Source of the DNA: Desulfobacterales bacterium
GTDB taxonomy: Bacteria; Desulfobacterota; Desulfobacteria; Desulfobacterales; JALSRD01
DNA: 39,029 bases
Direction: 5' to 3'
NCBI GenBank assembly: GCA_026984935.1
Contig: JALSRD010000087.1
Span: forward strand, 1 to 39,029
The number at the start of each line of letters is the position of its first letter. Position 1 is the stretch's first letter. Below, in pieces: positions 1,546-34,476 of this stretch. Both the position numbers and the translations under genes were made by a program. The notes under the pieces are model-generated. The model was not told the DNA's origin, did no database searches, and saw nothing but the letters and a program-made list of their open reading frames with translations.

Positions 1546-1770
1546 TTACACCTTCGCCGGCGGCAGAGATTTTTTACGGGGCTGGGCTGCGGTAGTCAGG
1601 TCAATCAGGTCGTTGACGTTAAGTTCCAGCATCTTGGCCGACGCCAGAATGCGGTCGGCGTTACGCACCAAGGCGGGAAAATCCGGCTGCACGGTCTTGA
1701 GCCGGGCCGCGATTTCCCGCAACTGGCGTATATCCCGGTCGATCTGCTCGAGCTGCTTCCAATCCTGCAT
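1546..1770 (-). CDS. Small charged helical protein of unknown function
   Basis: 74 residues, starting MQDWKQLEQIDRD. I chose the ATG at 1770 because GGAGGATTC sits directly before it; the upstream frame extension has no such signal. The protein is predicted by eye to be mostly alpha-helical (alternating Leu/Ile with Asp, Arg, Glu) with a basic, proline-containing tail. No signal peptide, membrane segment or recognised domain is visible. It lies 113 bp after the CoA-ligase gene and about 200 bp before cooC on the same strand, so it could belong to either unit. I do not recognise the family. Confidence 0.6.
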   Translation of the reverse strand: MQDWKQLEQIDRDIRQLREIAARLKTVQPDFPALVRNADRILASAKMLELNVNDLIDLTTAAQPRKKSLPPAKV

Positions 1771-1883: not shown

Positions 1884-3221
1884 TTATCCGTGCCGCTTTC
1901 TCAGATCCTTGAACCGCCGGGCCTTGACCTCATAGCGCGGCAGGCGGCCGTACTCGTGAAATTCCAGCTGGTAGCCAAGGTTGGTCTTGAGCCGCAGCTG
2001 GTCCTTGAGCCGCGCCTCGATCTCACCGGCGCGGTCTTTGGCACCGGGCATCAGCTCGACCTTGAGGGTGATGCTGTCCATGTTGCCCGGGCGCTCCACG
2101 ACGACTTCGTACTCGTCTCCCAGGCCGTCGATGCCGCGCACCACCTCTTCGATGGCGGCCGGCGCCAGCAGCACGCCCTTGACCTTGGTGATGTCGTCGG
2201 CGCGGCCCACCACACCGCCTTTTATCAGGCGGAAGCTGCGCCCGCAGTCACAGGGATGTTCGTCCCACTCGATGACGTCCTTGGCGTCGAAGCGCACACA
2301 GGGCTGGGCAAAACGGTCCAGCGCCGTGATGATCATCTTTCCGCGGCGGCCGGGCTTTTCGATGACCTCGCCGGTCTGCAGATCCTCGATCTCCACCAGG
2401 AAGAAGGCCTCGTTGACGTGCATGCCGGCCGGCTTGTTCCGGCACTCGAAGGACCAGGCCCCGATCTCGGTGGCCCCGGCGTGGTCGTAGACGTCGGCAT
2501 TCCAGGCCGTTTCCATGCGCCGCTTGGTGGTGGGGATGCTGGCGCCCGGCTCTCCGGCGCAGGTGATCTTTTCGATGGTCAGGTCGGCCGGATCGATGCC
2601 CATTCTGCTTCTGGCCGTGTCGGCCATGCCCAGCACGTAGGTGGGGGTGGCCATCATGGCCGTGGCCCGCAGTTCCTGGATCTTGAGGATGCGCGCCTGG
2701 GTATCCAGCACCCCGCCGGGCACCACCTCGCAGCCCAGCTTCTCGGCGGCGTAGTGCCCGGCCCAGAAGGCCACGAAGATGTTGTAACCGAAGGGAATGA
2801 AGACCCGGTCACGGGGACGGTAGCCCTGGGCCCACAGGATATAGGCCCAGCACTCGGCCCACCACTCCCAGTCCTGCCAGGTGTCAGGCTGATAGACCGG
2901 CCGGCCGGTGGTGCCGCTGGTCTGACGGAAGGCGGAAACCTCCTCCAGGGGCACGCACAGAGCATCTCCGTATGGGAAGGGGTCTTTCCCCTGGATATCG
3001 CGCATCATGGATTTTTCTACCTTGGGCACCCGCCGGATGTCCTCGAAGGTGTGGATGTCCCCGGGCGTAATGCCGGCGTCGTCGTAGAGCGAACGGTGGA
3101 ACCGCGAGTGTTCGTAGGCCCATTGAAAAATGCGCTTGAACTTGGCCAACTGCAGCGCCTGCAGCCGCTCCCGCGGCAGGGTCTCCAGGTAAGGGTTCCA
3201 GTACGGGCTGTCTGCCATCAT
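1884..3221 (-). CDS. PaaK-type aryl-CoA ligase (AMP-forming)
   Basis: 445 residues, the usual size of phenylacetate-CoA ligase family enzymes. These activate an aromatic acid with ATP to an acyl-adenylate and then transfer it to CoA. The phosphate-binding loop TSGTTGRP is at residues 101-108; further family features are CAGEPG, the adenylate-binding stretch DHAGATEIG, and the hinge and C-terminal domain beginning near GRADDITKVKG. The C-terminal domain is of the short PaaK type. The gene starts at the ATG at 3221, which overlaps the ubiX stop as ATGA, with GGGAGG upstream; a second ATG follows immediately. As last gene of the pps/ubiD operon it is the natural candidate to make 4-hydroxybenzoyl-CoA (or 4-aminobenzoyl-CoA) from the carboxylation product. 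The substrate is inferred from context only. Confidence 0.85.
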   Translation of the reverse strand: MMADSPYWNPYLETLPRERLQALQLAKFKRIFQWAYEHSRFHRSLYDDAGITPGDIHTFEDIRRVPKVEKSMMRDIQGKDPFPYGDALCVPLEEVSAFRQTSGTTGRPVYQPDTWQDWEWWAECWAYILWAQGYRPRDRVFIPFGYNIFVAFWAGHYAAEKLGCEVVPGGVLDTQARILKIQELRATAMMATPTYVLGMADTARSRMGIDPADLTIEKITCAGEPGASIPTTKRRMETAWNADVYDHAGATEIGAWSFECRNKPAGMHVNEAFFLVEIEDLQTGEVIEKPGRRGKMIITALDRFAQPCVRFDAKDVIEWDEHPCDCGRSFRLIKGGVVGRADDITKVKGVLLAPAAIEEVVRGIDGLGDEYEVVVERPGNMDSITLKVELMPGAKDRAGEIEARLKDQLRLKTNLGYQLEFHEYGRLPRYEVKARRFKDLRKRHG

Positions 3222-3850
3222 GGGTCGCCTCCCGCGCGGCTCCCAGCCACGGCCATGCCGAAAGCGCCGCGCCGCTTGTCTTCCTCTTGCTCCTCGCCCC
3301 AGCGCCGGAAGAGCGAATGCCGGATGCCGAAGTAGTCGAAGATCTTGCCGATGGTCTGGTCCACGATATCGTCGATGGTCTTGGGCTGGTGATAAAAGGA
3401 GGGGATGGGCGGCAGGATGTGGGCCCCCATGTCGGCCGCCAGGCTCATCAGGCGCAGGTGGCCCTTGTGCAGCGGCGTCTCCCGTACCACCAGCACGAGC
3501 TTGCGCTTTTCCTTGAGGGTCACGTCGGCCGCCCGCACCAGCAGATTGGTGTTGTAGGAATTGGCGATTCCCGAGAGCGACTTGATGGTGCACGGCGCCA
3601 CGATCATGCCCGCGGTGAGAAAAGAGCCGGAAGATACCGCCGCCGCCATGTCCGTGTCGTCGTACACGCGGCCGGCCATGGCTGCCACCTGGTCGGCCGT
3701 GTAAGGCGTCTCGATCTCGATGTTCAGTTTGCCGGCTCCGGAGATGATCAGGTGGGTCTCGTACTGGCTCTCCTGAAGCAGGTTCAGAATACGCACCCCG
3801 TACGTCACGCCGCTGGCGCCGGAGATACCGATGACGATTCGTCTGGACAT
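3218..3850 (-). CDS. ubiX: UbiX-type flavin prenyltransferase
   Basis: 210 residues. UbiX joins dimethylallyl phosphate to FMN to give prenylated FMN, the cofactor of UbiD (de)carboxylases. Visible are the N-terminal flavodoxin-like GISGASG at residues 8-14, the SSGSF stretch with APCTIKSLSGIA, the conserved RETPLH segment and the C-terminal FYHQPKTIDDIVDQT helix. The ATG at 3850 has GGGGAGGCGAAAGG upstream. Its first 46 bp overlap the 3' end of the LpdD-like gene, and its stop overlaps the ligase start. The C-terminus carries about 25 extra residues rich in Arg, Glu and Gly beyond the usual core. Presence in the operon directly supports a prenyl-FMN-dependent carboxylase. Confidence 0.9.
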   Translation of the reverse strand: MSRRIVIGISGASGVTYGVRILNLLQESQYETHLIISGAGKLNIEIETPYTADQVAAMAGRVYDDTDMAAAVSSGSFLTAGMIVAPCTIKSLSGIANSYNTNLLVRAADVTLKEKRKLVLVVRETPLHKGHLRLMSLAADMGAHILPPIPSFYHQPKTIDDIVDQTIGKIFDYFGIRHSLFRRWGEEQEEDKRRGAFGMAVAGSRAGGDP

Positions 3851-4272
3851 GAATTACCTTTCGCCTCCCCATGGCAGCCGGAGCCATTTCCTACCGCCAC
3901 TTGTTCGAGTATCAGACCCGTCAGCACACGGCTGTTTTTGACCACCTGGGCGATACCGTTCTCGTCCAGATTGTCCCAGTGAATACCGGCGGTGACCACC
4001 ACCGCGCTGTTCACGCTGGATGCAACGGCCAGGGCGATCTCGCGGGCCAGCAGGTCTTCCTTGTGGCCCACGTAGCACAGCACCGATGCCGAGGCGCTCG
4101 GCTGCGCCGGGTCCTTCAGGCTGGGTCTTGGTTGGGCCGCGGCCACGGCTCCGATGTGCGGCCGTTGCCCGCCCCACACGGCCACCAGCAGATCCGGGCC
4201 GATGCGCCGTATGGCGGCCGTCAGGTCATAGCTGCCCGTGCGGGTGCGCACCGTAAACGCTTCCGGGTTCAC
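3805..4272 (-). CDS. LpdD-like protein (putative prenylated-flavin chaperone / small carboxylase partner)
   Basis: 155 residues. The central part (IGPDLLVAVWGG, PHIGAVAAAQPRPSLKDP, GHKEDLLA, VVVTAGIHWDNLDENGI) resembles my recollection of the family of LpdD, the small partner in the LpdBCD gallate decarboxylase system, described as a prenylated-flavin chaperone-like domain. No membrane segment or signal peptide is seen; the last 30 residues are Ser/Pro/Ala-rich and probably disordered. The start is GTG at 4272, overlapping the ppsC stop as GTGA, with no clear ribosome-binding site, so translation is probably coupled. An alternative is that it replaces the small PpcC subunit of the Thauera phenylphosphate carboxylase. 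The family call rests on memory of motifs, without a search. Confidence 0.65.
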   Translation of the reverse strand: MNPEAFTVRTRTGSYDLTAAIRRIGPDLLVAVWGGQRPHIGAVAAAQPRPSLKDPAQPSASASVLCYVGHKEDLLAREIALAVASSVNSAVVVTAGIHWDNLDENGIAQVVKNSRVLTGLILEQVAVGNGSGCHGEAKGNSCPDESSSVSPAPAA

Positions 4273-4919
4273 GGGGTGGCCACACGCTCGATGATCTGGT
4301 ATCTGCTCGCCTCGACCGCCTGGATCACGGCATCGGGATCCGGGGCTTTGAAGCGTACCACCAGCCGTTGCTTACCGGACTGCGGATCCTTCAGATTGAA
4401 GAGGCTGTGCAGAATACCGCCGGCAGCGGCAACCGCCTCCACCACCTCGACGGCCATGCGTTCGCCGCCCTGCCGGCCGCATTCCAGTGACACCCCGGCA
4501 ATTTCTTCTTCGATGCCCAGGATCTGGTAGAGGGAATCGAAGATGTCCAGGTAGGAAACCGTACCGGTGAGACGGTCGCCGTCCAAAATGGGGAAAAAGC
4601 TGCGGCCGAACTTTTTCCCCTTGGAAAGGGCGGTTTCCACGGTGTCGTTGGCCGACAGGGTTTCGGGCTTGCGCACCATCAGGTCCTTCACCTTCAGGCG
4701 GGTGTTGAAGTAATTGAGTTCGTGGATGCTCTCGGCGGCCGTCACGCAGGAGGCGGCCTCACGCAGGTCGCGGCGGGCCAGGATGCCGCGCAGCCGGCCG
4801 TCGTCGACCACGGGAATGAAAGGCAGCCCGCATTGTGCGAAGACACTCAAGGCCTCGCTGGCCAGCATGTCGCTGTGAATGGTAATGGGATCTTTGCGCA
4901 TCCAGTTTCTGATAATCAT
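4269..4919 (-). CDS. ppsC: Phenylphosphate synthase subunit C-like CBS-domain protein
   Basis: 216 residues, about 24 kDa, equal to the size of PpsC, the stimulating third protein of Thauera phenylphosphate synthase. Two CBS motifs occupy roughly residues 1-65 (MRKDPITIHSD, FIPVVDDGRLRGILARRDL) and 78-135 (VRKPETLSANDTV, FFPILDGDRLTGTVSYLDI). Residues 145-216 form an ACT-like beta-alpha domain. CBS pairs bind adenine nucleotides, which suits an activator of an ATP-splitting enzyme. Its ATG overlaps the upstream stop as ATGA and its stop overlaps the next gene as GTGA. It is separated from ppsAB by the ubiD and Tm-1-like genes. A CBS protein alone could be anything; the pps assignment comes from size and context. 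Confidence 0.75.
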   Translation of the reverse strand: MIIRNWMRKDPITIHSDMLASEALSVFAQCGLPFIPVVDDGRLRGILARRDLREAASCVTAAESIHELNYFNTRLKVKDLMVRKPETLSANDTVETALSKGKKFGRSFFPILDGDRLTGTVSYLDIFDSLYQILGIEEEIAGVSLECGRQGGERMAVEVVEAVAAAGGILHSLFNLKDPQSGKQRLVVRFKAPDPDAVIQAVEASRYQIIERVATP

Positions 4920-6163
4920 GACGACGATTCCTTCATTTGCATGTACAGGCGGTGGAACAGCGCCACGGCCGCTTGTCCGAATTCCGGCGTGTTCAGGTGC
5001 AGGTCGACCTCCTCTACGGGGATTTCAGCCTTCAGCTTTTTTTTAAGGGCCGTCACGAAGGCGCGGTCGGCTTCCGGGTCGAACAGAGGCCGGCCTTCCT
5101 TGTTCAGCGAACTCCAGCCTTTGAGGGGGATCAACACGGCACAGGGTGCCTGGCTGCGGTTCAGGCGCTCGGCCATGACCTTTGCCATTTTCTCCAGTTC
5201 CCCGCCACTGGTGCGCACCTCGATGCGCAGCCTGTCGATCACCGCCTGGGGGCGGTCGCGGTACCTTTCCAGCAGTTCCTGGTTCCCGCCCACGCTGAGC
5301 ATGTCCAGCCCCGAGGGTGACACCACCTGCGGAATGCCGCTTTCAGCCGCCGCCAGCAGACGGTCGTCACCGGCGGCACAGTTGCCCCCCAGCAGCGTCT
5401 CGCCGATACCACGGGAAACGATGTCGATAACCCCGGAAAACCACCCGTCGCGGATAAGTTCATCCATGGCGCGGTCGCCGCGGCCCTGAGCGTGGCAGGG
5501 CACAGGGGTGTAGCCCCGGTCCCGCAGATAGTGAATGGCCGGCTCCACGGCCCGCTCGGCAAAGCCGAAGGAAGTGATGGCCACCACGGGCCTGTCGAAA
5601 TCCACTTTCCAGCCCGGCGACATCTCCACCATGCCGCAGATGGCGCCCACGGCGTTGATCAGCTGGGTCTTCAAAATGGGGTTGAGTTCCACCACGTCCA
5701 CCACCGTGTTGAGCATGGTGATATCCTTGGTGCCCACGTATTTGCCCACGTATTTGGGGTGGCCCGCCATGGAGGAGGCCATCAGTTTGGGCATGCCAAA
5801 GGGCATGGACTGCATGATGCTGGTGGACACCAGCGAGGATGTCCCACCCCCCACGCCCAGCACGCCGTGCACCCTGCCGTCCTCGAACAGTTCGCGCACG
5901 ATTTTGCGGGCCCCGCGCACCTGGTTGTCGGTGGCTTTCTGGCGCTCTTGGCGGTACAGCCGGCGGACCTCGTCGATGGGCAGGCCACCGGCCTCGGCCA
6001 CCTGCTCACAGGTGATGTCACCCTCGAAAAAAGGGACCTGCTCCATGGAAAAATCCAGCAGGATAGCGTCGTGCCCCCGGGACTGGATGAGCTCCTTGAC
6101 CATCTCGAACTCGGCGCCGCGGGTGTCCAGGTTGGCGATGACCAGTACCGTCTTCTTATCCAT
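4916..6163 (-). CDS. Tm-1-like ATP-binding domain protein (UPF0261)
   Basis: 415 residues. The N-terminal sequence KTVLVIANLDTRGAEFEMVK followed by LGVGGGTSS and the SMAGHPKYVG and VVELN segments match the UPF0261/Tm-1-like family. Members include the N-terminal domain of the tomato resistance protein Tm-1 and many bacterial proteins of uncertain role; the family binds ATP. I start at the ATG at 6163, where the family N-terminus begins; a longer frame starts with TTG inside the end of ubiD. It lies between the carboxylase and ppsC genes and overlaps ppsC by ATGA, so it is expected in near-fixed ratio with the pathway enzymes. No role in phenol metabolism is known to me. Family assignment is good, function open. 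Confidence 0.8.
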   Translation of the reverse strand: MDKKTVLVIANLDTRGAEFEMVKELIQSRGHDAILLDFSMEQVPFFEGDITCEQVAEAGGLPIDEVRRLYRQERQKATDNQVRGARKIVRELFEDGRVHGVLGVGGGTSSLVSTSIMQSMPFGMPKLMASSMAGHPKYVGKYVGTKDITMLNTVVDVVELNPILKTQLINAVGAICGMVEMSPGWKVDFDRPVVAITSFGFAERAVEPAIHYLRDRGYTPVPCHAQGRGDRAMDELIRDGWFSGVIDIVSRGIGETLLGGNCAAGDDRLLAAAESGIPQVVSPSGLDMLSVGGNQELLERYRDRPQAVIDRLRIEVRTSGGELEKMAKVMAERLNRSQAPCAVLIPLKGWSSLNKEGRPLFDPEADRAFVTALKKKLKAEIPVEEVDLHLNTPEFGQAAVALFHRLYMQMKESSS

Positions 6164-6245
6164 ATTGTCTGCCGTCTCCCCGTTGCAAGATTCCCCCCCG
6201 TCCCCGGCATCAACCGTCGGCGGCGGGGTTGGGTTACCGGTGCGT

Positions 6246-7652
6246 CTACAACCCAAATTCGGACCAGCGCGCCTTGACGCGTTTCAGCACGTCGGGGTCC
6301 AGCTCGATGGGAATCGGCTTCTCCTTCCACTCGTAAGGAATGGTGGCATCCATCAACAGCCGCCCGGTGATCTCGCGCGCATCGATGGGTAAGGACGGAT
6401 CCAGCGGGGTGGACCGGCCGCGCTTGATGATCTGGCAGCGGTTGGGCTGAAAGCGGAAGCTCAGCGCGTACATGACGCGCGGGATATCCCACGGGTCGAT
6501 ATCGTCGTCAACCACGATGACGGTTTTCAGGCCGTAGGCACCCATCTCCGTGGAGATGGCGGCCGTCAGCACCTGGTCCGCATGACCGGGATACATCTGC
6601 TTCATGGAAATGATGGCCAGAAAGCGTCCGGAGCCCTCCGGCGGGCAGTAAACCCCCTTGAGGCCCGGGATCTTCATGGCCAGCAGCTGCTGCCAGAGGT
6701 TGGCCCCGTATGACAGCGCCATGGTCATGTGGGTGTCGGTCACGGCCCTGCCCACGGTGGTGCCCCAGAAAATGGGGTTGTCGCGGTAGGTCACGCATTT
6801 GGCGTCGATGAAGTTGCGGGGGTCGGTGCCCACTCCCGAGTAATAACCCGTGTACTCCCCGAAGGGGCCCTCGTCCATGAATTTCTCGGCATCCACCTCG
6901 CCTTCCACCACGATCTCGGCGTGGGCCGGGATGGGCAGATCCACGGTCTCGCCCCGCACCACCTCAATGGGTTCGCCGCGCAGGGCGCCGGCCACGTCGT
7001 ACTCGGAGACAAAGGCCGAAACCCGGGCAGCGCCCAGAATGAACAACAGCGGGTCACAGCCCACGATGGAAGCCACTGGCATGGGTTTTCCCAGGGCCTG
7101 GTATTTTTTCAGCATGATGTCGGCATGTTTGCCCTTGATGAACTGGGTGCCGATCTTGTCTTTTCCCAGCAGCTGCCCGCGGTAGGTGCCCAGGTTAACC
7201 CAGCCGCTGTCCGGATCCTTGGTAATGACAAAATGGGCCGTGCCGTAAAACCGGCCGCCGTCCAGGGGATAGAACTTGGGTACCGGAAACTTGAACAGGT
7301 CCACCTCGTCGCCCATCATCTTGTTCTGTTTGCAGGGGGCATCGGCAGGGTCGATCTCCTTGGGCGGCAGCAGGTTTTCCCCCAGTTTCGCCCAGGCCGC
7401 GTACAGATCGCCCAGGCTGGAGTTTTCGGGCTGGCCCATGATGACCGCCAACCTTTCGACGGTGGTGCACACACTGGTAATTACCGGTGTATCGTAGCCT
7501 TTGACGTTTTCAAACAGCAGGGCCGGACCGCTCTGCTCTTCGTTCAGTTTGGCGATGTGGGACAGTTCCAGGTCCCAGTCCACCTCGGCCTTGATGCGTT
7601 TCAGCAGTCCCCTTTCCTCACAGGCCGCCACAAAATCCCGCATGTCCTTCAT
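6246..7652 (-). CDS. UbiD-family carboxylase, probable phenylphosphate carboxylase catalytic subunit
   Basis: 468 residues, normal for the UbiD family of prenyl-FMN-dependent (de)carboxylases. The catalytic pattern is complete: Arg158 in NLGTYR, and Glu261 and Glu266 in EGPFGEY, with spacing close to the Arg173/Glu277/Glu282 triad of Aspergillus Fdc1. Metal/cofactor-site segments (for example WGTTVGRAVTD, VDDDIDPWD and the IKRGRSTPLDPS block) are also present. The ATG at 7652 has GAAAGGAG upstream. Following ppsA and ppsB, it would correspond to PpcA/PpcB of Thauera and carboxylate phenylphosphate to 4-hydroxybenzoate. Only one such subunit is here, whereas Thauera has two. A substrate other than phenylphosphate (for example phenylphosphoamidate from aniline) cannot be excluded. 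Confidence 0.85.
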   Translation of the reverse strand: MKDMRDFVAACEERGLLKRIKAEVDWDLELSHIAKLNEEQSGPALLFENVKGYDTPVITSVCTTVERLAVIMGQPENSSLGDLYAAWAKLGENLLPPKEIDPADAPCKQNKMMGDEVDLFKFPVPKFYPLDGGRFYGTAHFVITKDPDSGWVNLGTYRGQLLGKDKIGTQFIKGKHADIMLKKYQALGKPMPVASIVGCDPLLFILGAARVSAFVSEYDVAGALRGEPIEVVRGETVDLPIPAHAEIVVEGEVDAEKFMDEGPFGEYTGYYSGVGTDPRNFIDAKCVTYRDNPIFWGTTVGRAVTDTHMTMALSYGANLWQQLLAMKIPGLKGVYCPPEGSGRFLAIISMKQMYPGHADQVLTAAISTEMGAYGLKTVIVVDDDIDPWDIPRVMYALSFRFQPNRCQIIKRGRSTPLDPSLPIDAREITGRLLMDATIPYEWKEKPIPIELDPDVLKRVKARWSEFGL

Positions 7653-7685
7653 GTAATGACTCCTTTCATATTTTGAGCTCTCGGC

Positions 7686-7710
7686 TATCAGCTGACACCC
7701 GGTGCTGATA
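7686..7710. repeat. Inverted repeat between ppsB and the ubiD gene
   Basis: TATCAGC (7686-7692) and GCTGATA (7704-7710) form a perfect 7-bp inverted repeat with an 11-nt loop; CACC/GGTG inside gives an alternative fold. It lies in the only sizeable gap (67 bp) inside the first half of the operon. No T-run follows on the minus strand, so a processing or stabilising hairpin is more likely than a terminator. Confidence 0.35.
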
Positions 7711-7719
7711 TCTGAGGGC

Positions 7720-8805
7720 TTACTGCGTTATCTTCTTGCCCGCCACCAGGCCCGCCACGATATGTTCCAGGGCCGATTTCCGCGGCTGGCACACCGGTTC
7801 GGCTTTTTTGGTGCTCCACACCGTTTCCGGTCGGCTCTGGAGAATCATCACACGGCCGGCCGCCGGCAGATCCTTGTCGATGGCCCACTCGATGTCCATG
7901 GGTTTACAGTAGTGTTTTTCGATGAGTTTGCCGATGCGGGCCAGCTCCACGACGTCATCGCCAATGATGCACTGGTTGGTGCGCCGCTCTTCGGGAATCT
8001 CGTGGCGCTCCACGGCGTGGGTTGCGGGGTTGACGGTGTACAGGCACTCCTTGGCTGAAATGGTGCGCTTGATGATCTCCATGGTGACTTTATTGACAAC
8101 GAAGTTGTCCGGAGTGCACTCGCCGCTGACTACACTTTCGCCGAATCCCCAGTTGGCATCGATGACAATGGTGGAAGGGTCACCGGTGGCCGGATTCAGG
8201 GTGAACATAACCCCCGCGGTCCACGAGTTGACCATCTTCTGTATACCTACTGAAATGCCCACCTGATCATGCCGAAATCCCATTTTGGCGCGGTAAGCCA
8301 GGGCCCGGGGCGTAAACAGACTCGACCAACATCGGCGCACGTGGTTCAGGATGTCGTCCATACCCCGGATCCACAGAAAAGTATCCTGCTGGCCGGCAAA
8401 ACTGGCTCCCGGCAGGTCCTCGGCCGTGCCGCTGGAGCGCACCGCGGCCGGCACCGCCGGTACACGGCTGCGCCTGGACAGCCGGCGGTAAAATTCACCG
8501 ATATAATCCTCGATGTCCAGGCTGACCGGCGTGGACTCGATGATCTCGCGGATGCGTCGACTGGCGGCCTCGCCTGTGTCGGTGTCGTCGGGCCGCACTG
8601 TGCCGGCAACACGTACGATGTCCCCTCGTATACCGCCCTCGTCCAGGAAGCGCTGGTAGGTCTCGGTGGTCACCGCAAACCCCGGTGGAACCGGTATGCC
8701 GGCTTTGAGCAGTTCCCCCAGGCTGGCATTCTTGCCCCCCACCAGGGGCATGGATTCAAGATCGCACTCCTGAAACCAAAGCACATATTTTTCTCGATCT
8801 TTCAT
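7720..8805 (-). CDS. ppsB: Phenylphosphate synthase subunit B (PEP synthase N-terminal-like, ATP-binding)
   Basis: 361 residues, about 40 kDa, matching PpsB of Thauera. It is the stand-alone PEP/pyruvate-binding, ATP-grasp part of a PEP-synthase-like enzyme: LVGGKNASLGEL near residue 22, AVRSSGTAEDLPGASFAGQQDTFL near 122-144, GVMFTLNP and DANWGFGE in the middle, and MDIEWAIDKD and MILQSRPET near the end. In the known enzyme this subunit uses ATP to phosphorylate a histidine of PpsA. The ATG at 8805 lies 12 bp after the ppsA stop, with GGGGT upstream. The split of one PEP-synthase fold into two adjacent genes of these exact sizes is the diagnostic feature of phenylphosphate synthase. Confidence 0.85.
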   Translation of the reverse strand: MKDREKYVLWFQECDLESMPLVGGKNASLGELLKAGIPVPPGFAVTTETYQRFLDEGGIRGDIVRVAGTVRPDDTDTGEAASRRIREIIESTPVSLDIEDYIGEFYRRLSRRSRVPAVPAAVRSSGTAEDLPGASFAGQQDTFLWIRGMDDILNHVRRCWSSLFTPRALAYRAKMGFRHDQVGISVGIQKMVNSWTAGVMFTLNPATGDPSTIVIDANWGFGESVVSGECTPDNFVVNKVTMEIIKRTISAKECLYTVNPATHAVERHEIPEERRTNQCIIGDDVVELARIGKLIEKHYCKPMDIEWAIDKDLPAAGRVMILQSRPETVWSTKKAEPVCQPRKSALEHIVAGLVAGKKITQ

Positions 8806-8817
8806 GGTGCTACCCCG

Positions 8818-10662
8818 TTATACTCTGTCCAGCAGGGTGATTTTGCCGCTATCGCCGTCCACACGGATCTTCATGCCGGTCTCCAGGATGTGGGTGGACT
8901 GCCCGGTGCCCACCACGGCGGGCATGCCGTACTCGCGGCAGACGATGGCGGCGTGGCACATGATGCCCCCCACGTCGGTGACGCAGGCCTTGATCTTCTG
9001 GAAAGCCGGCGCCCAGGAGGGCGAGGTGGTGGGCGCCACCAGGATTTCACCGTCGGCCAGCTGATTAATGTCGTCCACCGAGCGGCAAACGCGCGCCACA
9101 CCCTCCACCACACCCGGCGAACCGGCGAAACCGGTCAGTTCGGTGACCTTGTCCGGATCACCGATCTCGCGCAGCCTGGCCCAGGCGGCCATGGACTCGT
9201 TGGTGATGCCCCACAGCACGATGGTGAACGGTTCGGCGATGGTCTCGGGCGGCGTGCCCACGGCCGGCGGCGGGGTCCACTGCTTGAATTTTTCGTAAAC
9301 GCCCTTGCGCCACGCGATCTCGGGCGGCCAGTGCAGCGGCCCGTACCCCTTGGTGCCGGTGGCCCAGTTGCTCACCAGGTCCCACAGGGCGTCCTTGATT
9401 TCGCTGCGGTTGAGAAACCAGATGTCTTCCACCTCCGCGATGAAACCGTGGTCCTTCATGATGCGCGCCACGTCGCGCATCTTGTTCCAGAAGATGGAGT
9501 GGAACCAGTGCTCCACGTAGAAGAGGTGGTTTTCCACGTAGGGGAAGACCAGTTTGGCGGTGCCCTGCAGCTGATCAAAGGTCTGGCGGTCCTCGTCGGT
9601 CTTGAGCAGCGCCCGGTACTCGCTGGTGATCTGTTCGCGTTCGGCCTGGATACGCTCCAGCGGACGGTCGACGGGCAGACCCTGCCGGAGCTTGTCGATG
9701 TAAATGCGCATGGAGTTCAGGGGCACGTTCAGATCGTCGTTCCAGCTCAGGTCGTGGTGGTACCAGCCGGTGCCGGTGGAAACCCAGAACCAGGGGTCCC
9801 TGGCTTTGTCCCAGGCCGCAAGCCACTTGCGCCCGTTTTCGCTCTCGCCCAGGCGGCGGGTCACTTCGTCGATGTCGGCGTCGGTGCCGATCCGGTCGTC
9901 CACTTCGAGCTCGATGGCCAGCTTGGCCAGTTTCTTGAGTTCCTCGTCGGGCTGGTACATGATGACATCGATGCCGCCCACCATCTGAGTAACGCGCTGC
10001 AGGGGGATGTCCGGGAAGGCCTTGGTGCAGAAATCCACGAAGGTGACGTAAGCCGCGTATCCCAGATTGAGGAACTCGAAGTGGTACTGCCAGCACAGGA
10101 TGCCCAGGTCAATGAGCCGGTCATAGTTTTTCAGCAGCTGGTACCCGCTGGAGGTGCCCACACCATCGGTGACCACCGCCATGTCTTCCATTTCCGGCAG
10201 CGGCTGGATCTTGATTTCCCTGAGTTCGGAGATGATCTTCTTCATCTTCTCTTCCCACTGGCCGGTCAGCCGATCCCAGTTCTGGTAGTAATAGCCGGCG
10301 CGCTCCATGAACAACGGGATGCGGTCCTCCACCTCCTTGGGGTCGGTCACCGGCACCGGCGTGATGTAGACGTTGCCGTTGATGATGCGGTGATCCACGC
10401 CCAGGGCCGGCGGCACCATGAAGATGCGTGTGTTGAACTGTGAAAGCGCCAAAAACCAGGCCTCGTCCCAGATGATGTCGAAGGGGTACATGGGTTCAGG
10501 GTAGTGCAGCGCGTCGTTGAACCAGAACATGTTCTGCTCGTATTCACGGCGCTGAGGGTTGTCGGTACTGAAACGGTAGTGGTAGGGGTACATGCGCTCC
10601 CAGCCTTCGGTGCCGGGAATGGTTTCGACTTCATGGGGGCTGAGGAACTTGTTGTCGGCCAT
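8818..10662 (-). CDS. ppsA: Phenylphosphate synthase subunit A (PEP synthase C-terminal-like, phospho-histidine)
   Basis: 614 residues, about 70 kDa, the size of Thauera PpsA. The C-terminal PEP-utilising mobile domain has GGIMCHAAIVCREYGMPAVV; the histidine is residue 570, practically the position (His569) reported as the phosphorylated residue in the Thauera protein. The upstream 480 residues form the large substrate-binding part, with no PEP-synthase ATP-grasp domain, which PpsB supplies. The enzyme would transfer phosphate from the histidine to phenol. The ATG at 10662 has AGGAGGAGG upstream, the best ribosome-binding site of the operon, fitting its place as first gene. Aniline activation to phenylphosphoamidate uses related synthases, so the substrate remains open. 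Confidence 0.85.
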   Translation of the reverse strand: MADNKFLSPHEVETIPGTEGWERMYPYHYRFSTDNPQRREYEQNMFWFNDALHYPEPMYPFDIIWDEAWFLALSQFNTRIFMVPPALGVDHRIINGNVYITPVPVTDPKEVEDRIPLFMERAGYYYQNWDRLTGQWEEKMKKIISELREIKIQPLPEMEDMAVVTDGVGTSSGYQLLKNYDRLIDLGILCWQYHFEFLNLGYAAYVTFVDFCTKAFPDIPLQRVTQMVGGIDVIMYQPDEELKKLAKLAIELEVDDRIGTDADIDEVTRRLGESENGRKWLAAWDKARDPWFWVSTGTGWYHHDLSWNDDLNVPLNSMRIYIDKLRQGLPVDRPLERIQAEREQITSEYRALLKTDEDRQTFDQLQGTAKLVFPYVENHLFYVEHWFHSIFWNKMRDVARIMKDHGFIAEVEDIWFLNRSEIKDALWDLVSNWATGTKGYGPLHWPPEIAWRKGVYEKFKQWTPPPAVGTPPETIAEPFTIVLWGITNESMAAWARLREIGDPDKVTELTGFAGSPGVVEGVARVCRSVDDINQLADGEILVAPTTSPSWAPAFQKIKACVTDVGGIMCHAAIVCREYGMPAVVGTGQSTHILETGMKIRVDGDSGKITLLDRV

Positions 10663-10865: not shown

Positions 10866-11825
10866 ATGCTGAACCTTAACCAGCTGAGGTCTTTTTACCA
10901 CGCTGCCAGACGTCTGAGTGTGACGCAAGCCGCCCAAGACTTGTGCATCACCCAGCCGGCCGTCACGGCACAGATTAAAGCATTTGAGGCCAGCACAGAA
11001 TTGAAGTTTTTCCGCAAACAGGGCCGCCGTATTCACCTGACCGGTGAGGGGCAGATGGTTTACGAGTACGCGGTCGAACTTTTCAAAATCGAAAAGAAAA
11101 TCGAAAACGCCATCGAGGAAATGCGCGAACTGAAACGGGGAATACTGCGAGTGGGGACCACCAAGACTTATGCCCGTTACTTCATGCCGTCACTGATCAG
11201 CAGCTTTCACCGGAGCTATCCAGATATCAGAATCCACTTGAACGAAGGCAGCTCACTGGACATGATCAAAAGTTTGCTGGAATTCGACAACGAGGTAGCC
11301 GTTGTTGCCCAGACGTCCGAAGACCCGCGCATCGAGTTCGTGCCCTTCAGCCAGGAGGAACTGGTGGTGATCCTGTCCCCCCGCCATCGCCTGGCAAACG
11401 AAAGGCACATCGATTTTCGGCGGCTATCCGAGGAGCCTTTCATCATGAAAGAAGTCGGGTCCGGAACCCGCAAGGTGGTCAACGAGCTTTTCCGCCGACG
11501 CGGATGCATACCCAACGTCCTGATGGAAACCGGCAACAACGAGTTTATCAAACAACTGGTGCATCGCGGTGAAGGAATCTCTATTCTGGTACGGGCATGT
11601 GTGGAAACAGAACTAAAGGCGGGATTTCTGGCCACCACAACCTTGCGCGGACAACACCTGTTTCTGGATGTGAGTCTCGCCTATCTGAAAAATCAGACCC
11701 TTTCCCCGACAGCCCGCGCATTCGACAACTTGTTGACCCAGCTTCATTCCACCGGCGCTCCGCCACAGGACATCGGCTCGCTCATGGCCCGCATTCTGGC
11801 TCGTCGGCGCCTTGACAAAACATAG
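10866..11825 (+). CDS. LysR-family transcriptional regulator, probable regulator of the pps operon
   Basis: 319 residues, typical length. The N-terminal winged helix-turn-helix covers about residues 1-60 (LNQLRSFYHAARRLSVTQAAQDL, ITQPAVTAQIKAFE), followed by the linker helix and a periplasmic-binding-protein-like effector domain from about residue 88 (RGILRVGTT) to 300. The ATG at 10866 has GAAGGGG upstream. The gene is divergent from ppsA with 203 bp between starts, and the spacer holds a T-N11-A box. LysR proteins are commonly encoded next to and opposite their target operon, so it most likely senses the aromatic substrate or a pathway intermediate. This would differ from the sigma-54/XylR-type control known for phenol genes in several other bacteria. 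Confidence 0.85.
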   Translation: MLNLNQLRSFYHAARRLSVTQAAQDLCITQPAVTAQIKAFEASTELKFFRKQGRRIHLTGEGQMVYEYAVELFKIEKKIENAIEEMRELKRGILRVGTTKTYARYFMPSLISSFHRSYPDIRIHLNEGSSLDMIKSLLEFDNEVAVVAQTSEDPRIEFVPFSQEELVVILSPRHRLANERHIDFRRLSEEPFIMKEVGSGTRKVVNELFRRRGCIPNVLMETGNNEFIKQLVHRGEGISILVRACVETELKAGFLATTTLRGQHLFLDVSLAYLKNQTLSPTARAFDNLLTQLHSTGAPPQDIGSLMARILARRRLDKT

Positions 11826-24584: not shown

Positions 24585-25751
24585 TCATTGCGGCAGCGTA
24601 AACTGCGGCGCACCCAGCAGAAACTGCCCCCCGGAGATCCTCTGCTTCAGTTCCTCGGCAATTTCGCGCGCCTTGACGACACTGGACAGCGGCACGCTGG
24701 GAATCTGCTTTCCTTTGAACTGGATGCTGCCGCTCTTGAGTTCGGCGTAGCTCACCATGCCGTGGCTGTGCGCGCGCCCCTTGGGATAGTCGTTGCCGTA
24801 ATCGACGATCTGGGTGAACAATTCTTCGTCCGCAACACCCGTAAAACGCGCCAGGTCTTCATTGAGAATGGGGATCGGCACCCCGACGCCGACGGCCAGC
24901 GAACATCCGTAGCCCTGGATGCTGACGCCCCTCAGCCATTGCGGCTGCATCTGCTTCAGGTCTCCCATGACCCACAGCGTACCGGCCGGCCGCACGGGCA
25001 CCCCACGTGCCGTGCGCTCCTGGCCCGGGTTGTGCTGGGTCCCATGCCATGTGACATACCCCTCGCCGCCGCCTAAAAAAATGTGCGTACCCATACCGAT
25101 GGTCTGGTAAAAGGGGTCGTTGAGCAGGGGGCTGAGCTGCCCGGCGCTGCAGTAATTGGCGTTGGCCGCCATGGGCTTCAGCGCCCCCATATAAGTGTAG
25201 ATGGTCTTGCGCGTCAGGTTGATGGCGCAATTGTAGTTCTGGTAGGCGTTGCGTGGATTGCACAGCGTGGCCTGCGGAAGGGTCGCGAGGTCGATCTCCT
25301 TTTCCAGTTCCTTGCGCGGATAGCAGTCCGTCCCGTAAGAGCGGGCCTTCAGGTGGATCTTTTCGCCGGCCAGCAGATCCTGGATCACGTGCCCGCCGCC
25401 GTAGCGGAATTCCCCCGGATAAACCTTGTTCAAAGGATCGTCGCTGCGCGGTTCGGTAGCCCCGATATAACAGTCTACGGCGGCAATACCGGCGTAGGCC
25501 GGCACGTCGTTCAGCCAGACCTGCGAAGCCTTGATGCCCGGCACGGCATGCCCGAAATTGATGAAGGCGCCCGATGAGCACATGGGCGAGAAAGTCCCGG
25601 TGGTGACCACATCCACCTGGCGGGCGGCCTCGGCGGCGCCGTTTTCCCTGACGATATCGATCATTTCTTCGGCGGTCACCACGATCACCTCGCCTTTCCG
25701 GATTTTGGCGTTGATCTGGGCGTAAGTTTTGCTGACCTTGCTCTTTTTCAT
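24585..25751 (-). CDS. DUF39 homocysteine biosynthesis protein (aspartate-semialdehyde sulfurtransferase type)
   Basis: 388 residues. It belongs to the DUF39/HcyBio family, implicated in methanogens and sulfate reducers in making homocysteine from aspartate semialdehyde and sulfide without acyl-homoserine. Conserved stretches include SPMCSSGAFINFGH with Cys58, TDCYPRKELEKE with Cys143, CNPRNAYQNYNCA and GVGVPIPILNE. Cys58 and Cys143 are the likely counterparts of the two essential cysteines of the archaeal enzyme. No CBS pair or ferredoxin domain is fused, so a separate ferredoxin-type partner is expected elsewhere. Its ATG overlaps the upstream peptidase stop as ATGA. Strong hint of a sulfidogenic anaerobe. 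Confidence 0.85.
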   Translation of the reverse strand: MKKSKVSKTYAQINAKIRKGEVIVVTAEEMIDIVRENGAAEAARQVDVVTTGTFSPMCSSGAFINFGHAVPGIKASQVWLNDVPAYAGIAAVDCYIGATEPRSDDPLNKVYPGEFRYGGGHVIQDLLAGEKIHLKARSYGTDCYPRKELEKEIDLATLPQATLCNPRNAYQNYNCAINLTRKTIYTYMGALKPMAANANYCSAGQLSPLLNDPFYQTIGMGTHIFLGGGEGYVTWHGTQHNPGQERTARGVPVRPAGTLWVMGDLKQMQPQWLRGVSIQGYGCSLAVGVGVPIPILNEDLARFTGVADEELFTQIVDYGNDYPKGRAHSHGMVSYAELKSGSIQFKGKQIPSVPLSSVVKAREIAEELKQRISGGQFLLGAPQFTLPQ

Positions 25752-27545: not shown

Positions 27546-28430
27546 ATGACAAAGGGGAATGGCCCCGCCTATAGCACAGTTTTGGATAAAATGAACCCCG
27601 AGAAACGCGCTTTTGAAATCGACGGCATTCCCGTGGGACAGGGCCAGCCCCTGCTGCTGATCGCCGGCCCTTGTGTCATCGAGAGCTACGAAATGACACT
27701 GAAGATCGCAAAATATCTTCAGGGTGTCACCCGTAAACTGGGACTCGCCTTGATTTTCAAGGCATCCTTCGACAAGGCCAACCGCACGTCCATCGAATCT
27801 TTCCGGGGGCCGGGGATCGGCCGGGGCCTGGAGATCCTCATGCAGGTCAAAAGAGAACTCGATATCCGGGTATTGTCGGATGTGCACACGCCGGCGCAGA
27901 TCGAAGCCGCCGCCGAGGTTCTGGACGTCATCCAGATACCGGCGTTTCTGTGCCGCCAGACCGACCTTGTCCTGGCAGCCGCGCGCACGCAGAAACCGCT
28001 TAACATCAAAAAGGGACAGTTCCTGGCGCCCTGGGACATGGCCAACGTGGTGCAGAAAGCCGCTTCCACCGGCAACGCACGGATCCTGATCACCGAACGC
28101 GGCGCCATGTTCGGGTACAACAACCTGGTGGTCGATTTCCGCTCTATCCCGATCATGCAAAAGACGGGCTTTCCGGTCATTTTCGACGCCACCCACAGTA
28201 TTCAGCTGCCTGGCGGGGCCGGTACGCAGTCCGGCGGACAGCGCGAATTTGCGCCGCCGTTGGCACGTGCGGCCGTGGCGGCCGGTGCCGACGGCGTTTT
28301 CATGGAGGTACATCCCGATCCGGACCACGCGCTCTGCGATGGGCCGAACTCCCTGCGGCTCGAGGCGGTGGGCGACCTGCTTTCCCAGCTGATTGCGGTT
28401 AAAAATGTTTTGTCAAACCACCAACAGTGA
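27546..28430 (+). CDS. kdsA: 3-deoxy-8-phosphooctulonate synthase (Kdo-8-P synthase)
   Basis: 294 residues from the ATG at 27546; an ATG at 27591 would give a 279-residue protein closer to the family norm, and neither start has a strong ribosome-binding site. It condenses PEP with arabinose-5-phosphate for the Kdo of lipopolysaccharide. Family segments: LIAGPCVIES, FKASFDKANRTS, SDVHTP, QIPAFLCRQTDL, KKGQFLAPWDM, FDATHSIQLPGG and MEVHPDPDHALCDGPN. CDGPN rather than SDGPN and the cysteine in AGPCVIES suggest a metal-dependent (class II) enzyme. First gene of the Kdo/Lpt operon. Confidence 0.94.
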   Translation: MTKGNGPAYSTVLDKMNPEKRAFEIDGIPVGQGQPLLLIAGPCVIESYEMTLKIAKYLQGVTRKLGLALIFKASFDKANRTSIESFRGPGIGRGLEILMQVKRELDIRVLSDVHTPAQIEAAAEVLDVIQIPAFLCRQTDLVLAAARTQKPLNIKKGQFLAPWDMANVVQKAASTGNARILITERGAMFGYNNLVVDFRSIPIMQKTGFPVIFDATHSIQLPGGAGTQSGGQREFAPPLARAAVAAGADGVFMEVHPDPDHALCDGPNSLRLEAVGDLLSQLIAVKNVLSNHQQ

Positions 28431-28480
28431 TTATAGTCTGTTCATCAAAAATGGCAACCGGCCGGAAAGGCTGTAGCCGG

Positions 28481-29002
28481 ATGGATATCGCCGAAAGACT
28501 CGGACGCATTGAACTGCTGATTCTCGACGTGGACGGCGTGTTGACCACGGGTGAGGTCGTTTTCAACGGCCGGGGCGATGACATCAAGGCCTTCAATGTC
28601 AGAGACGGATTTGGCATGCGCCTGCTGCAGGCGGCGGGCATACAGATCGCAATTGCAACCGGCAGGAAGTCTGAAGCTCTGGCACGGCGATGCCGGGAGC
28701 TGGACATCGATCTGGTTTTCGACGGCTTGCGGGACAAGGCCGCGGTAATCGGGCCGCTTACCGCGCGTACCGCCGTCGACCCCGGACGTATGGCGTTTAT
28801 GGGCGATGACCTGCCGGATATTGCACTGATGAAGCGTGTGGGTCTGGCCATCGCGGTGGCCGATGCCCACCCGCTGGTACGGCAGGAGGCCCATGTGACC
28901 ACGCGTGCCAAGGGCGGCCGGGGGGCCGTGCGCGAGGTATGCGAACGCCTGCTTGAGGCCCGGGGAAAATGGCAGCAGGCAGTTGAAAGATTTGTCCGAT
29001 GA
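28481..29002 (+). CDS. kdsC: Kdo-8-phosphate phosphatase (HAD family)
   Basis: 173 residues. It removes the phosphate from Kdo-8-P, the next step after KdsA. HAD motif I is LDVDGVLTTG, motif II is the T of ATGRKSEALA, and motif III is GDDLPDIALM; no cap domain is present, as expected for tetrameric KdsC. I chose the ATG at 28481, preceded by GGAAAGG at ten bases, over longer options. The stop overlaps the lptC start as ATGA. Confidence 0.92.
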   Translation: MDIAERLGRIELLILDVDGVLTTGEVVFNGRGDDIKAFNVRDGFGMRLLQAAGIQIAIATGRKSEALARRCRELDIDLVFDGLRDKAAVIGPLTARTAVDPGRMAFMGDDLPDIALMKRVGLAIAVADAHPLVRQEAHVTTRAKGGRGAVREVCERLLEARGKWQQAVERFVR

Positions 29003-29580
29003 ATTATATCAGCACCTCCAAAAAACTCCGAATCGCCTTGATCGTGGTCATGGTGGCGATCCTGGGCGGTGTGGGAGCGGTATTTCTGAATTACCGTACG
29101 GACAGCCAGCCATCCCATGACCGGCCGGTGGTACGCCAGGAATCCAAGGCGGATGTTTCACTGGGCAAAATCCACCAGGTTTCCACGCGTGACGGCATCG
29201 TCCAGTGGAGCCTGGATGCCCAGTCGGCCCAGGTGCAGCAGAAAAAGAATATTGTCACCTTGAAAAAAATTGCCGTGACCTTTTTCCTGAAAAACGGCCA
29301 GCAGGCCCATCTGACCGCGGACGAGGGCGTGCTGCGGGCGGATTCCAGCGACATGGACGTGTATGGCAATGTCGTGCTGCACTACGACAATTTCGTTCTG
29401 GAAACGGACATGCTCAAGTACCGGCACAAAAAGCGCCTGGTATTCACCGACACACCGGTCTTGATTTCCGACAACCTGTCCCGGCTGATGGCGGATTCGG
29501 CCTCTTTCGACCTGAATTCCACCAAAAGCGATTTCAAGGGTAATGTCGAGGGATTTCTCAGTGGTCAATTCAAGCTGTAG
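28999..29580 (+). CDS. lptC: LPS export protein LptC
   Basis: 193 residues. A single N-terminal membrane helix (about residues 10-30, LRIALIVVMVAILGGVGAVFL) is followed by a periplasmic beta-jellyroll with the LptC/OstA-like pattern (LTADEGVLRADSSDMDVYGNVVLHY, LKYRHKKRLVFTD). It bridges the LptB2FG transporter and LptA. Its ATG overlaps the kdsC stop and its 3' end overlaps lptA by 38 bp. Confidence 0.88.
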   Translation: MNYISTSKKLRIALIVVMVAILGGVGAVFLNYRTDSQPSHDRPVVRQESKADVSLGKIHQVSTRDGIVQWSLDAQSAQVQQKKNIVTLKKIAVTFFLKNGQQAHLTADEGVLRADSSDMDVYGNVVLHYDNFVLETDMLKYRHKKRLVFTDTPVLISDNLSRLMADSASFDLNSTKSDFKGNVEGFLSGQFKL

Positions 29581-30160
29581 CCTTAAATGGGCGAAAATAG
29601 CAGTAGGCCTCGTCTTGGGTATGTTGCTGTTTCAGATTCCGCCGGCCGCCAGGGGCGACGAAAAGCCGCTGACACCGGACGGTCTGACCGGTGCCAACAA
29701 GATCCACATTACATCCGACCGGCTGGAATCTCTGCCAAACCAAAACGTTGCCGAATTTATCGGCAACGTGCGGGTGACCCAGGGGCAGACCATCATCACC
29801 TCGGACCGCTTGAAGATATACTACCGTGACAGCCTGGGCTCTAAAAAGAAAGTCAAGAGCGGCGAAAATGCCATCCGGAAAATTATCGCCCGCGGTCACG
29901 TGATCATCAAAATCGACGGCCGCATCGCCGTTGCCGATCAGGCCGAGTACCAGCCCGAGTCCGGCATCGTGATCCTGACGGGCAAGAATTCCAAAATCAG
30001 CCAGGGCGCCAATTTCGTGGCGGGCGAAAAAATTACCTATTACCGCAAGTCCAGCCGCATCACGGTTCAGCGCAGCGGCAACAAACGCGTCGAGGCCGTT
30101 TTCTTTTCGAACGGCCAGAACCCGGTGCTGCCGGCCAAGGGGACTCCAAAAAAGAAATAG
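29543..30160 (+). CDS. lptA: LPS export protein LptA
   Basis: 205 residues. A signal peptide ends near residue 38 (VGLVLGMLLFQIPPAARG). The mature OstA-like beta-jellyroll shows ITSDRLESLPNQNVAEFIGNV, ITSDRLKIYY and VADQAEYQPESGIVILTGKN, as in LptA, which forms the periplasmic bridge for LPS. The ATG at 29543 gives an overlap of 38 bp with lptC; a GTG at 29564 (GAGGG eight bases upstream) is a possible alternative. The tail is Lys-rich. Confidence 0.88.
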   Translation: MSRDFSVVNSSCSLKWAKIAVGLVLGMLLFQIPPAARGDEKPLTPDGLTGANKIHITSDRLESLPNQNVAEFIGNVRVTQGQTIITSDRLKIYYRDSLGSKKKVKSGENAIRKIIARGHVIIKIDGRIAVADQAEYQPESGIVILTGKNSKISQGANFVAGEKITYYRKSSRITVQRSGNKRVEAVFFSNGQNPVLPAKGTPKKK

Positions 30161-30196
30161 AAGATATGCCGGCAAAGATGCCGCCTGAAGGTGCAA

Positions 30197-30919
30197 GTGG
30201 CCAAACTGTCTCTGCAAAATATGGTGAAGATCTACGGTGGGCGGAAGGTCGTCAACGCCGTCAACCTGAACGTGGTCAGCGGCGGAATCGTGGGGCTGTT
30301 GGGCCCCAACGGTGCCGGCAAGACGACGACTTTCTACATGGCCATCGGCATGATTCATCCGGACGGTGGCAAAGTTTACCTGGATGGCCAGGAGATCACC
30401 GATTACCCCATGCATATCCGGGCGCGCCGGGGAATCGGGTACCTGCCCCAGGAAAACTCGGTATTCCGCAAACTGACGGTGCGGGAAAATCTCATCGCCA
30501 TTCTGGAGCAGATGCCGCTTTCCAAACTGGACATGATCGAACGCAGCGATGCACTGTTGGAAGAACTCGGCATCCGGCGCCTGGCCGACCAGAAGGCCAG
30601 TGTGCTTTCGGGCGGTGAACGCCGACGGCTTGAAATTTCACGTGCCCTGGCCACCAACCCGGTTTTCATGCTGCTGGACGAACCTTTTGCCGGCATCGAT
30701 CCACTGGCGGTAATCGACATCAAGGCGATCATCGAACAGCTGAAAAAAAAGAACATCGGGATCCTTATTTCGGATCACAACGTCCGGGAGACGCTCAAGG
30801 TCTGTGACGAGGCTTATATCCTGAACAACGGTGAGGTAATCGAATCCGGACCGCCGGAAAAAATTGCGGCCAGCGAAGTCGCCCGCCGCATCTACCTGGG
30901 AAACGAATTCTGTCTTTAG
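30197..30919 (+). CDS. lptB: LPS export ABC transporter ATPase LptB
   Basis: 240 residues. Energises LPS extraction from the inner membrane. Walker A GPNGAGKTTT (about residue 36), Q-loop YLPQENSVF, signature LSGGERRR, Walker B VFMLLDEPFAGIDP and switch His in SDHNVRE are all intact; NVRETLKVCDEAYIL is characteristic of LptB. GTG at 30197 is preceded by GAAGG at five bases; GTG at 30191 is a second possibility two codons upstream. The stop is one base before the rpoN start, suggesting coupling. The partner genes lptF/lptG are not in the window. Confidence 0.95.
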   Translation: MAKLSLQNMVKIYGGRKVVNAVNLNVVSGGIVGLLGPNGAGKTTTFYMAIGMIHPDGGKVYLDGQEITDYPMHIRARRGIGYLPQENSVFRKLTVRENLIAILEQMPLSKLDMIERSDALLEELGIRRLADQKASVLSGGERRRLEISRALATNPVFMLLDEPFAGIDPLAVIDIKAIIEQLKKKNIGILISDHNVRETLKVCDEAYILNNGEVIESGPPEKIAASEVARRIYLGNEFCL

Positions 30920-30920
30920 T

Positions 30921-32351: not shown

Positions 32352-32429
32352 GTGCTGGTCATGACTTTTAATCTGCCGTGGGGTACGAACCTCTTTGCGA
32401 ATGTATTTTTGACAAAGGAGACCTGATTC

Positions 32430-32960: not shown

Positions 32961-33046
32961 GAACGCGGCCAAGCGCCGGTGCGCCTTCCACGACCAGACA
33001 GCCGGGCGGCGCAACAAAGAAGAACACCCTTGCACGGTGAACATGG

Positions 33047-33505: not shown

Positions 33506-33550
33506 ACAACGCGGCAGCTGCGCGAATGCCGGCCTCTTGGCAAAAAAAAC

Positions 33551-34414: not shown

Positions 34415-34476
34415 GACGATGGACACAGGCCTGCGGCTCAAGCCGCGGCAAAAACGAAAAAGAAACCGGGAAAATT

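Follow-up and report, generated by a model that had tools for sequence, protein, structure and literature searches.

The window analysed here is one whole contig of 39,029 bases (C87) from the genome of a Desulfobacterales bacterium (3.89 Mb in 112 contigs, 99.45% complete); by PpsA, the closest relative with a name is a Desulfobacteraceae metagenome-assembled genome (L044, 93%). On its minus strand, from 10662 down to 1884, lie eight genes encoding PpsA, PpsB, a UbiD-type carboxylase, a UPF0261/Tm-1-like protein, the CBS-type PpsC, an LpdD-like protein, UbiX and a PaaK-type ligase. An earlier note on this DNA had described them as a complete operon for ATP-dependent activation and carboxylation of phenol or aniline; all eight open reading frames are present in the order it gave and belong to the families it named. 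We read the operon as one for ATP-dependent phenol activation and para-carboxylation in a sulfate reducer, with the UPF0261 protein taking part in the carboxylation step, and put the probability of this reading at about 0.68.

Organization of the operon

The kinase genes stand first. PpsA, the phosphotransfer subunit of phenylphosphate synthase (8818..10662, 614 aa), scores 1048 bits with NF006152 (cut-off 723) and lies above the cut-off in four related NCBIfam models named 'hypothetical protein'. Its mobile domain (PF00391, 1.9e-24, residues 536–606) contains the stretch TDVGGIMCH570AAI, which conforms to the T/SxxGGxxxH motif with the catalytic histidine of PpsA-type kinases (PMC12167813; here and below, statements from papers cited by PMC number refer to the available parts of those texts). 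Both other subunits of phenylphosphate synthase are present: the ATP-binding PpsB (7720..8805, 361 aa; PF01326 PPDK_N, 1.8e-115) and the CBS-pair protein PpsC (4269..4919, 216 aa; PF00571 in two stretches, 6.4e-19). The three protein lengths and the position of His570 agree with those reported before. At the distal end, the PaaK-type acyl-CoA ligase (1884..3221, with its start ATG at 3221 or 3218) matches PF14535 (1.5e-16) and reaches 233 bits with TIGR02155, under the cut-off of 646; it is a candidate hydroxybenzoate-CoA ligase.

The genes are closely packed, although the many ATGA or GTGA overlaps mentioned earlier occur at only three of the seven junctions: Tm-1-like/PpsC (ATGA), PpsC/LpdD (GTGA) and, provided that PaaK starts at 3221, UbiX/PaaK (ATGA). 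A longer overlap of 46 bp between LpdD and UbiX brings the overlapping junctions to 4/7, and short gaps separate PpsA from PpsB (12 bp), PpsB from UbiD (67 bp) and UbiD from the Tm-1-like gene (82 bp, with its ATG at 6163). The congener L044 has the identical eight-gene order, and many further genomes share portions of it; the arrangement is therefore not a product of chance. In the congener G001 all eight open reading frames are conserved, at 78–96% identity per gene, and in the host itself they are intact.

UPF0261 and the PpcA, PpcC and PpcD subunits

The UbiD-type protein (6246..7652, 468 aa) passes the phenylphosphate carboxylase beta model TIGR02724 (phenyl_P_beta, 495 bits, cut-off 469), as expected of a PpcB subunit. 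It retains R158, E261 and E266, which we take to be the catalytic Arg/Glu/Glu residues. Together with the neighbouring UbiX and LpdD family genes, which complete the supply of prenylated flavin mononucleotide (prFMN), these residues mark it as a prFMN-dependent UbiD. UbiX (3218..3850, 210 aa) exceeds the cut-offs of two flavin prenyltransferase models (NF004685, 250 bits, cut-off 188; TIGR00421, 231 bits, cut-off 109). The LpdD-type protein (3805..4272, 155 aa) matches PF21758 (1.5e-34) and, by phmmer, the solved LpdD 8pzh (1.4e-6). LpdD is reported to be a prFMNH2-binding chaperone that aids UbiD activation, with the metal ligands H35-H61-D63 (PMC10865409). The operon protein belongs, like LpdD of Lactobacillus plantarum, to the PF21758 family, and it keeps two of the three metal-ligand positions (H39 and H70), whereas D63 aligns with E72, all in a weak pairwise match of 31.6 bits.

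The known phenylphosphate carboxylase includes a phosphatase subunit (PMC10865409). Activation, UbiD, UbiX and ligase functions are all encoded here, but the earlier claim of completeness holds only in part: PpcA, PpcC and PpcD of Aromatoleum-type operons are not in this one, and 4-hydroxybenzoyl-CoA reductase (HCR), which comes next in the known route, was not found in the assembly. A genome-wide search did not find PpcA, the second UbiD subunit. The sole other UbiD scores 77 bits with TIGR02723 (cut-off 565), lies beside genes for a UbiA/MqnP-type prenyltransferase and an MqnE-type protein, and has a menaquinone decarboxylase as its best model, under the cut-off; we rejected it as a hidden PpcA and regard it, by context, as a menaquinone enzyme. 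The genome-wide query for the HAD phosphatase subunit PpcD returned a single match (41%), the gene at 28427–29002, which was likewise rejected since its kdsA-type and lptC-type neighbours indicate a KdsC-like protein. There is thus no PpcA or PpcD at hand. For PpcC (PF09662), a search confined to the operon gave no matching protein.

The gene that follows ubiD instead encodes the UPF0261/Tm-1-like protein (4916..6163, 415 aa; PF06792 and PF23189). To see how it is distributed, we compared 84 distinct PpsA loci, comprising 80 named contigs (the best 80 of at least 557 relatives) and four loci of relatives. Aromatoleum-type loci have the order ppsA, ppsB, ppsC, ppcB, ppcD, ppcA, ppcC, orf7, ubiX, orf9, orf10, while most others have ppsA, ppsB, ubiD and UPF0261 plus added genes. 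At least 4.5 kb after PpsA was available in 64 of the 84 loci, and every one of these has a PpcB-type UbiD. Left out were a copy of L044 (L033), loci at contig or stretch ends (L034, L035, L041) and two stretches with PpsA in which UbiD, UPF0261 and PpcA do not occur (L036, L043). Among the 64 loci, 46 have UPF0261 without PpcA, PpcC or PpcD, 16 have all three of these subunits without UPF0261, none has both and two have neither (L060, L086). The UPF0261 loci also carry ppsC (38/46), ubiX (34/46), an AMP ligase (19/46) and lpdD (7/46).

A second set consisted of 40 stretches, 20 picked by UPF0261 score and 20 by PpsA, from which two repeats (L238 = L063, L257 = L079) were dropped; the UPF0261-picked stretches are positive by selection and test only the presence of UbiD and the absence of PpcA. 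Here 18 loci have UbiD and UPF0261 only (15 UPF0261-picked, 3 PpsA-picked), three PpcA only and none both, and 17 lack UbiD; one of the 17 (G266) revealed PpcB-D-A-C once extended, which changed the PpcA-only and UbiD-less counts to 4 and 16. Over both sets, with near-copies from different genomes such as L122/L123 retained and the source contig not counted, the 86 decided loci divide into 64 UPF0261-only, 20 PpcA-only, 0 with both and 2 with neither.

The same tendency is seen at the genome level. Across 297 genomes from this phylum, 42 of the 48 that are PpsA-positive have UPF0261 (E ≤ 1e-30), versus 26 of the 249 others; these counts are uncorrected for relatedness and place G262, with its weak distant match, among the others. 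Four of the six PpsA-positive genomes without UPF0261 have PpcB-D-A (G116, G119, G266, G289) and the other two are cut by contig ends (G311, G331); G215 has PpcACD plus a low-scoring UPF0261 elsewhere in the genome. In 58 nearer genomes, with PpsA called at E ≤ 1e-100, the figures are 9/9 and 2/49.

Two further features of individual loci were observed. In L039 (G026:C41) three UPF0261 genes surround a single PpsA-PpsB-UbiD cluster. The orf9 product of Aromatoleum-type operons, encoded near ubiX (19558–19995 in L101), is a protein with the CTP-dependent riboflavin kinase domain PF01982, and is a possible source of FMN for prFMN.

Phylogenetic trees show at which level the two gene sets alternate. 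On a PpsA tree of 80 rows, in which two pairs of identical rows add no pairs and eight UPF0261 rows come from UPF0261-picked stretches, the PpcACD trait changes six times and UPF0261 is opposite in 6/6 independent pairs (sign test, p 0.031). UPF0261 therefore follows the carboxylase rather than the kinase and belongs with the UbiD module. The UbiD tree gathers the 16 PpcACD loci, plus one undecided row, in a single starred clade, which implies that the carboxylase types are old. By the PpsA tree, a kinase of one kind has been joined repeatedly to either carboxylase module, in at least six switches and always as alternatives.

A UPF0261 tree of 68 rows places all 46 operon copies in a clade of 51 starred at 99, with two deep subclades; of its remaining rows four are near Pps genes and one (L160) is of unknown context. 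This is a quick tree with long branches outside the clade, and it does not include the copies of L261, L262 and L264, whose UPF0261 genes lie beside UbiD and are 37–40% identical. The protein encoded in our operon belongs to this Pps-linked clade and, within it, to a subclade of 29 starred at 100, which contains the congener and one more relative and otherwise mainly Proteobacteria and Spirochaetota. The operon UbiD falls in a Desulfobacterota clade of its own tree. The two placements together indicate a mosaic operon that retained its UPF0261 gene.

The AlphaFold model of the UPF0261 protein (pLDDT 93.7) matches over its whole length the fold of tomato Tm-1 (3wrw; Z 41.9, 386 residues, 4.3 Å) and of Saro_1862 from Novosphingobium (9mpy; Z 33.5, 395 residues, 8.2 Å). 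According to its title, entry 9mpy has a phenol, acetovanillone, bound. Identity to these two proteins is 28–31%, and the operon proteins differ from them in forming a separate clade with residues of its own: S39, M40, F122, P136, D230 and G252 are kept in 50 rows of the clade and missing from 17 others. An attempt to read an enzyme class from the fold was abandoned, as beyond Tm-1 and Saro_1862 there were only one-domain matches (UDP-GlcNAc 2-epimerases, Z ~12) that give no function. No publication dealing with Saro_1862, or with UPF0261 in the context of phenol clusters, was found in a literature search that covered papers outside subscription.

Proposed pathway and its alternatives

The course claimed earlier, in which a phenol is activated with ATP, carboxylated in the para position and then ligated to CoA, has good support from homology. 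PpsB would bind ATP, and His570 of PpsA would take up and transfer the phosphoryl group to give phenylphosphate, with PpsC assisting the kinase step. The single PpcB-like UbiD, using prFMN from UbiX loaded with the help of LpdD, would then run in the carboxylating direction and convert the activated ring to a 4-hydroxybenzoate-type acid, from which the PaaK-type ligase would form the CoA thioester. Since the phosphatase PpcD and PpcA are missing, UPF0261 is the most consistently present candidate for dealing with the phosphorylated phenol. It would take the place of PpcA, PpcC and PpcD, most likely by binding either phenol or its phosphate ester and by linking the release of phosphate to UbiD. 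We infer that UPF0261 is a subunit working alongside UbiD in a phenylphosphate carboxylase of a second kind. Its full form, in which the commoner kind among the examined loci is a single UbiD with a UPF0261 protein that binds phenylphosphate, drives phosphate release and replaces the three Ppc subunits, is offered tentatively.

Several points weigh against this. A gene-neighbourhood rule is not proof of a subunit. Each carboxylase type may have arisen only once, the PpcACD loci forming one UbiD clade, and the six switches may be module transfers. L060 and L086 have a single UbiD and no UPF0261 within 7–10 kb on each side. For Desulfatiglans anilini, in vitro conversion of aniline to 4-aminobenzoate is reported with a pair of kinase subunits and a pair of UbiD subunits, no further protein being named in the available text (Xie et al. 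2020, PMC7500099); this argues against UPF0261 being absolutely required. A second UbiD of this organism, encoded outside the cluster (03563, assigned as ppc-alpha), is phenol-induced (PMC6114531), so that reliance on a single UbiD may not be general among operons of this type. Finally, three models (TIGR03194, PF02738, PF01799) found no protein of the xanthine dehydrogenase family, and thus no 4-hydroxybenzoyl-CoA reductase, in the 99.45%-complete assembly, and the product is left without a known onward route; either the HCR gene is missing from the draft bin, or the acid is routed elsewhere.

The alternative that survives best is that UPF0261 belongs to phenol clusters but acts outside the carboxylase, whether as a sensor, in substrate handling or as a passenger. 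It would account for the two loci without UPF0261, for the four in which the gene lies upstream of ppsA instead of after ubiD (L059, L069, L072, L083) and for the 26/249 genomes that have UPF0261 without PpsA; the ligand in entry 9mpy, moreover, shows only a capacity of the family to bind phenols. We nevertheless find it doubtful, given the reciprocity with PpcA, PpcC and PpcD at constant kinase in all six independent pairs and the case of G319, a 95%-complete genome in which ubiD, an AMP ligase, UPF0261, lpdD and ubiX share a short contig (L235) and no PpsA was found at E ≤ 1e-60.

The substrate is likeliest phenol or a close phenol, as far as sequences can tell, and the aniline that the earlier note gave as an option is not favoured. 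PpsA is 65–67% identical to PpsA of the Aromatoleum/Azoarcus ppsABC-ppcBDAC clusters, and up to 80% to that of non-congener Desulfobacterota. The aniline kinase of D. anilini (PasA, known here from published values) is 28% identical to Thauera PpsA and has its histidine at 512 (PMC7500099), in contrast to His570 of the operon protein. On a PpsA tree of 108 rows, whose phenol-type references are from Aromatoleum/Azoarcus, the operon PpsA falls in an 18-row starred clade made up largely of sequences labelled Desulfobacterota, with two from Spirochaetota. A distant PpsA-like group (~25–30% identity) lies far from it, joined via long branches and unsure in position. Stretches that also have a phenol-type PpsA or a UPF0261 gene can contain distant PpsAB-like pairs (L050, L246, L250; PpsA 25–27%), which are possibly kinases for aniline or other phenols.

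That the operon acts on another phenol or on aniline (catechol, hydroquinone, cresol, aniline) and not on phenol itself is unlikely. Sequence by itself leaves such room, as the related kinases HpeHI and CreHI use other phenols (PMC12167813) and D. anilini Pas accepts both aniline and phenol in vitro (PMC7500099). HpeH, CreH and PpsA are, however, only ~45% identical to one another (PMC12167813), well below the match to the Aromatoleum/Azoarcus proteins, and the aniline kinase is more distant still.

A relic operon or a pathway of partial reactions, as the missing reductase could suggest, is less probable again. It gains from the comparison with G001, which has five PF02738 matches and a full-length HCR-like protein of 647 bits (under the family cut-off of 994.55). 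Against it stand the eight intact open reading frames with their conservation in G001, the presence in the host of Had and Oah of the benzoyl-CoA pathway, and the draft state of the assembly in 112 contigs. That PpsA and PpsB are ordinary split phosphoenolpyruvate synthases can be dismissed: PpsB has its top score with such models (392 bits), but under the equivalog cut-off of 598, and PpsA matches them solely over its last ~100–220 residues and groups with phenol-type PpsA, not with phosphoenolpyruvate synthases.

Two genes absent from the earlier note flank the operon. On the plus strand, a divergent LysR-family gene (10866..11825; PF00126 and PF03466) is likely its regulator, and an opposite-strand LysR gene adjoining PpsA is frequent in Desulfobacterota loci. 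On the minus strand, the PaaK gene is followed by a small open reading frame (1546..1770, 74 aa) without a Pfam match, homologues of which adjoin PaaK in L039, L043, L044, L063, L069, L240 and L261. Further downstream on the same strand is a gene for a MinD/ArsA-like P-loop ATPase (592–1347, 251 aa). Elsewhere in the window there is an ordinary cell-envelope and sigma-54 cluster (27546–34890: kdsA-type, kdsC-type, lptC, ABC ATPase, rpoN, hpf, rapZ, EIIA-man) followed by gapA- and tpiA-type genes up to 36791. The host carries dsrA, and a HcyBio homocysteine-biosynthesis sulfur-incorporation protein (PF01837) is encoded in the window at 24585–25751.

Relation to known phenol and aniline systems

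With the ppsABC-ppcBDAC system of Thauera/Aromatoleum, of which Aromatoleum loci were examined, the operon shares PpsA, PpsB, PpsC, a PpcB-type UbiD, UbiX and a PaaK-type ligase; it differs in having UPF0261 and LpdD genes and in being without PpcA, PpcC, PpcD, Orf7, Orf9 and Orf10. The phe cluster of the sulfate reducer D. anilini (02049–02059) likewise unites PpsA, PpsB, a PpcB-type UbiD, UbiX and PaaK, whereas it additionally includes genes for an AMP ligase and for CODH/HCR-type subunits, the homologue of pps-gamma is assigned to another place, and Pps-alpha shares 42% identity with the Thauera protein (PMC6114531). For this organism ppc-gamma was not found, ppc-alpha and ppc-delta were assigned to genes elsewhere in the genome, and the carboxylase was not measurable in extracts (PMC6114531). 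Gene 02057 is not mentioned in the available parts of the two papers checked. The aniline system of D. anilini (Pas, Ppc-beta and Ppc-beta2) follows the same logic of a kinase pair and UbiD carboxylation, with the difference that its two UbiDs come from two clusters and that its kinase has the 28% identity to Thauera PpsA and the His512 described above (PMC7500099).

The pathway itself is already published, and so is the occurrence in sulfate reducers, iron reducers and syntrophs of Pps-Ppc clusters that retain only PpsAB and PpcB (PMC6114531, PMC5946492, PMC7500099). What is new here is the reciprocity of UPF0261 with PpcA, PpcC and PpcD in phenol clusters, of which the literature search found no prior mention. 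It bears on how phenol is carboxylated in strict anaerobes that do not have the full Thauera subunit set, and singles out UPF0261 as a candidate that is testable with a few recombinant proteins. The operon also offers a set of enzymes for fixing CO2 onto phenols. If the proposed role is true, an unassigned family, to which the plant virus-resistance protein Tm-1 also belongs, would gain a biochemical function.

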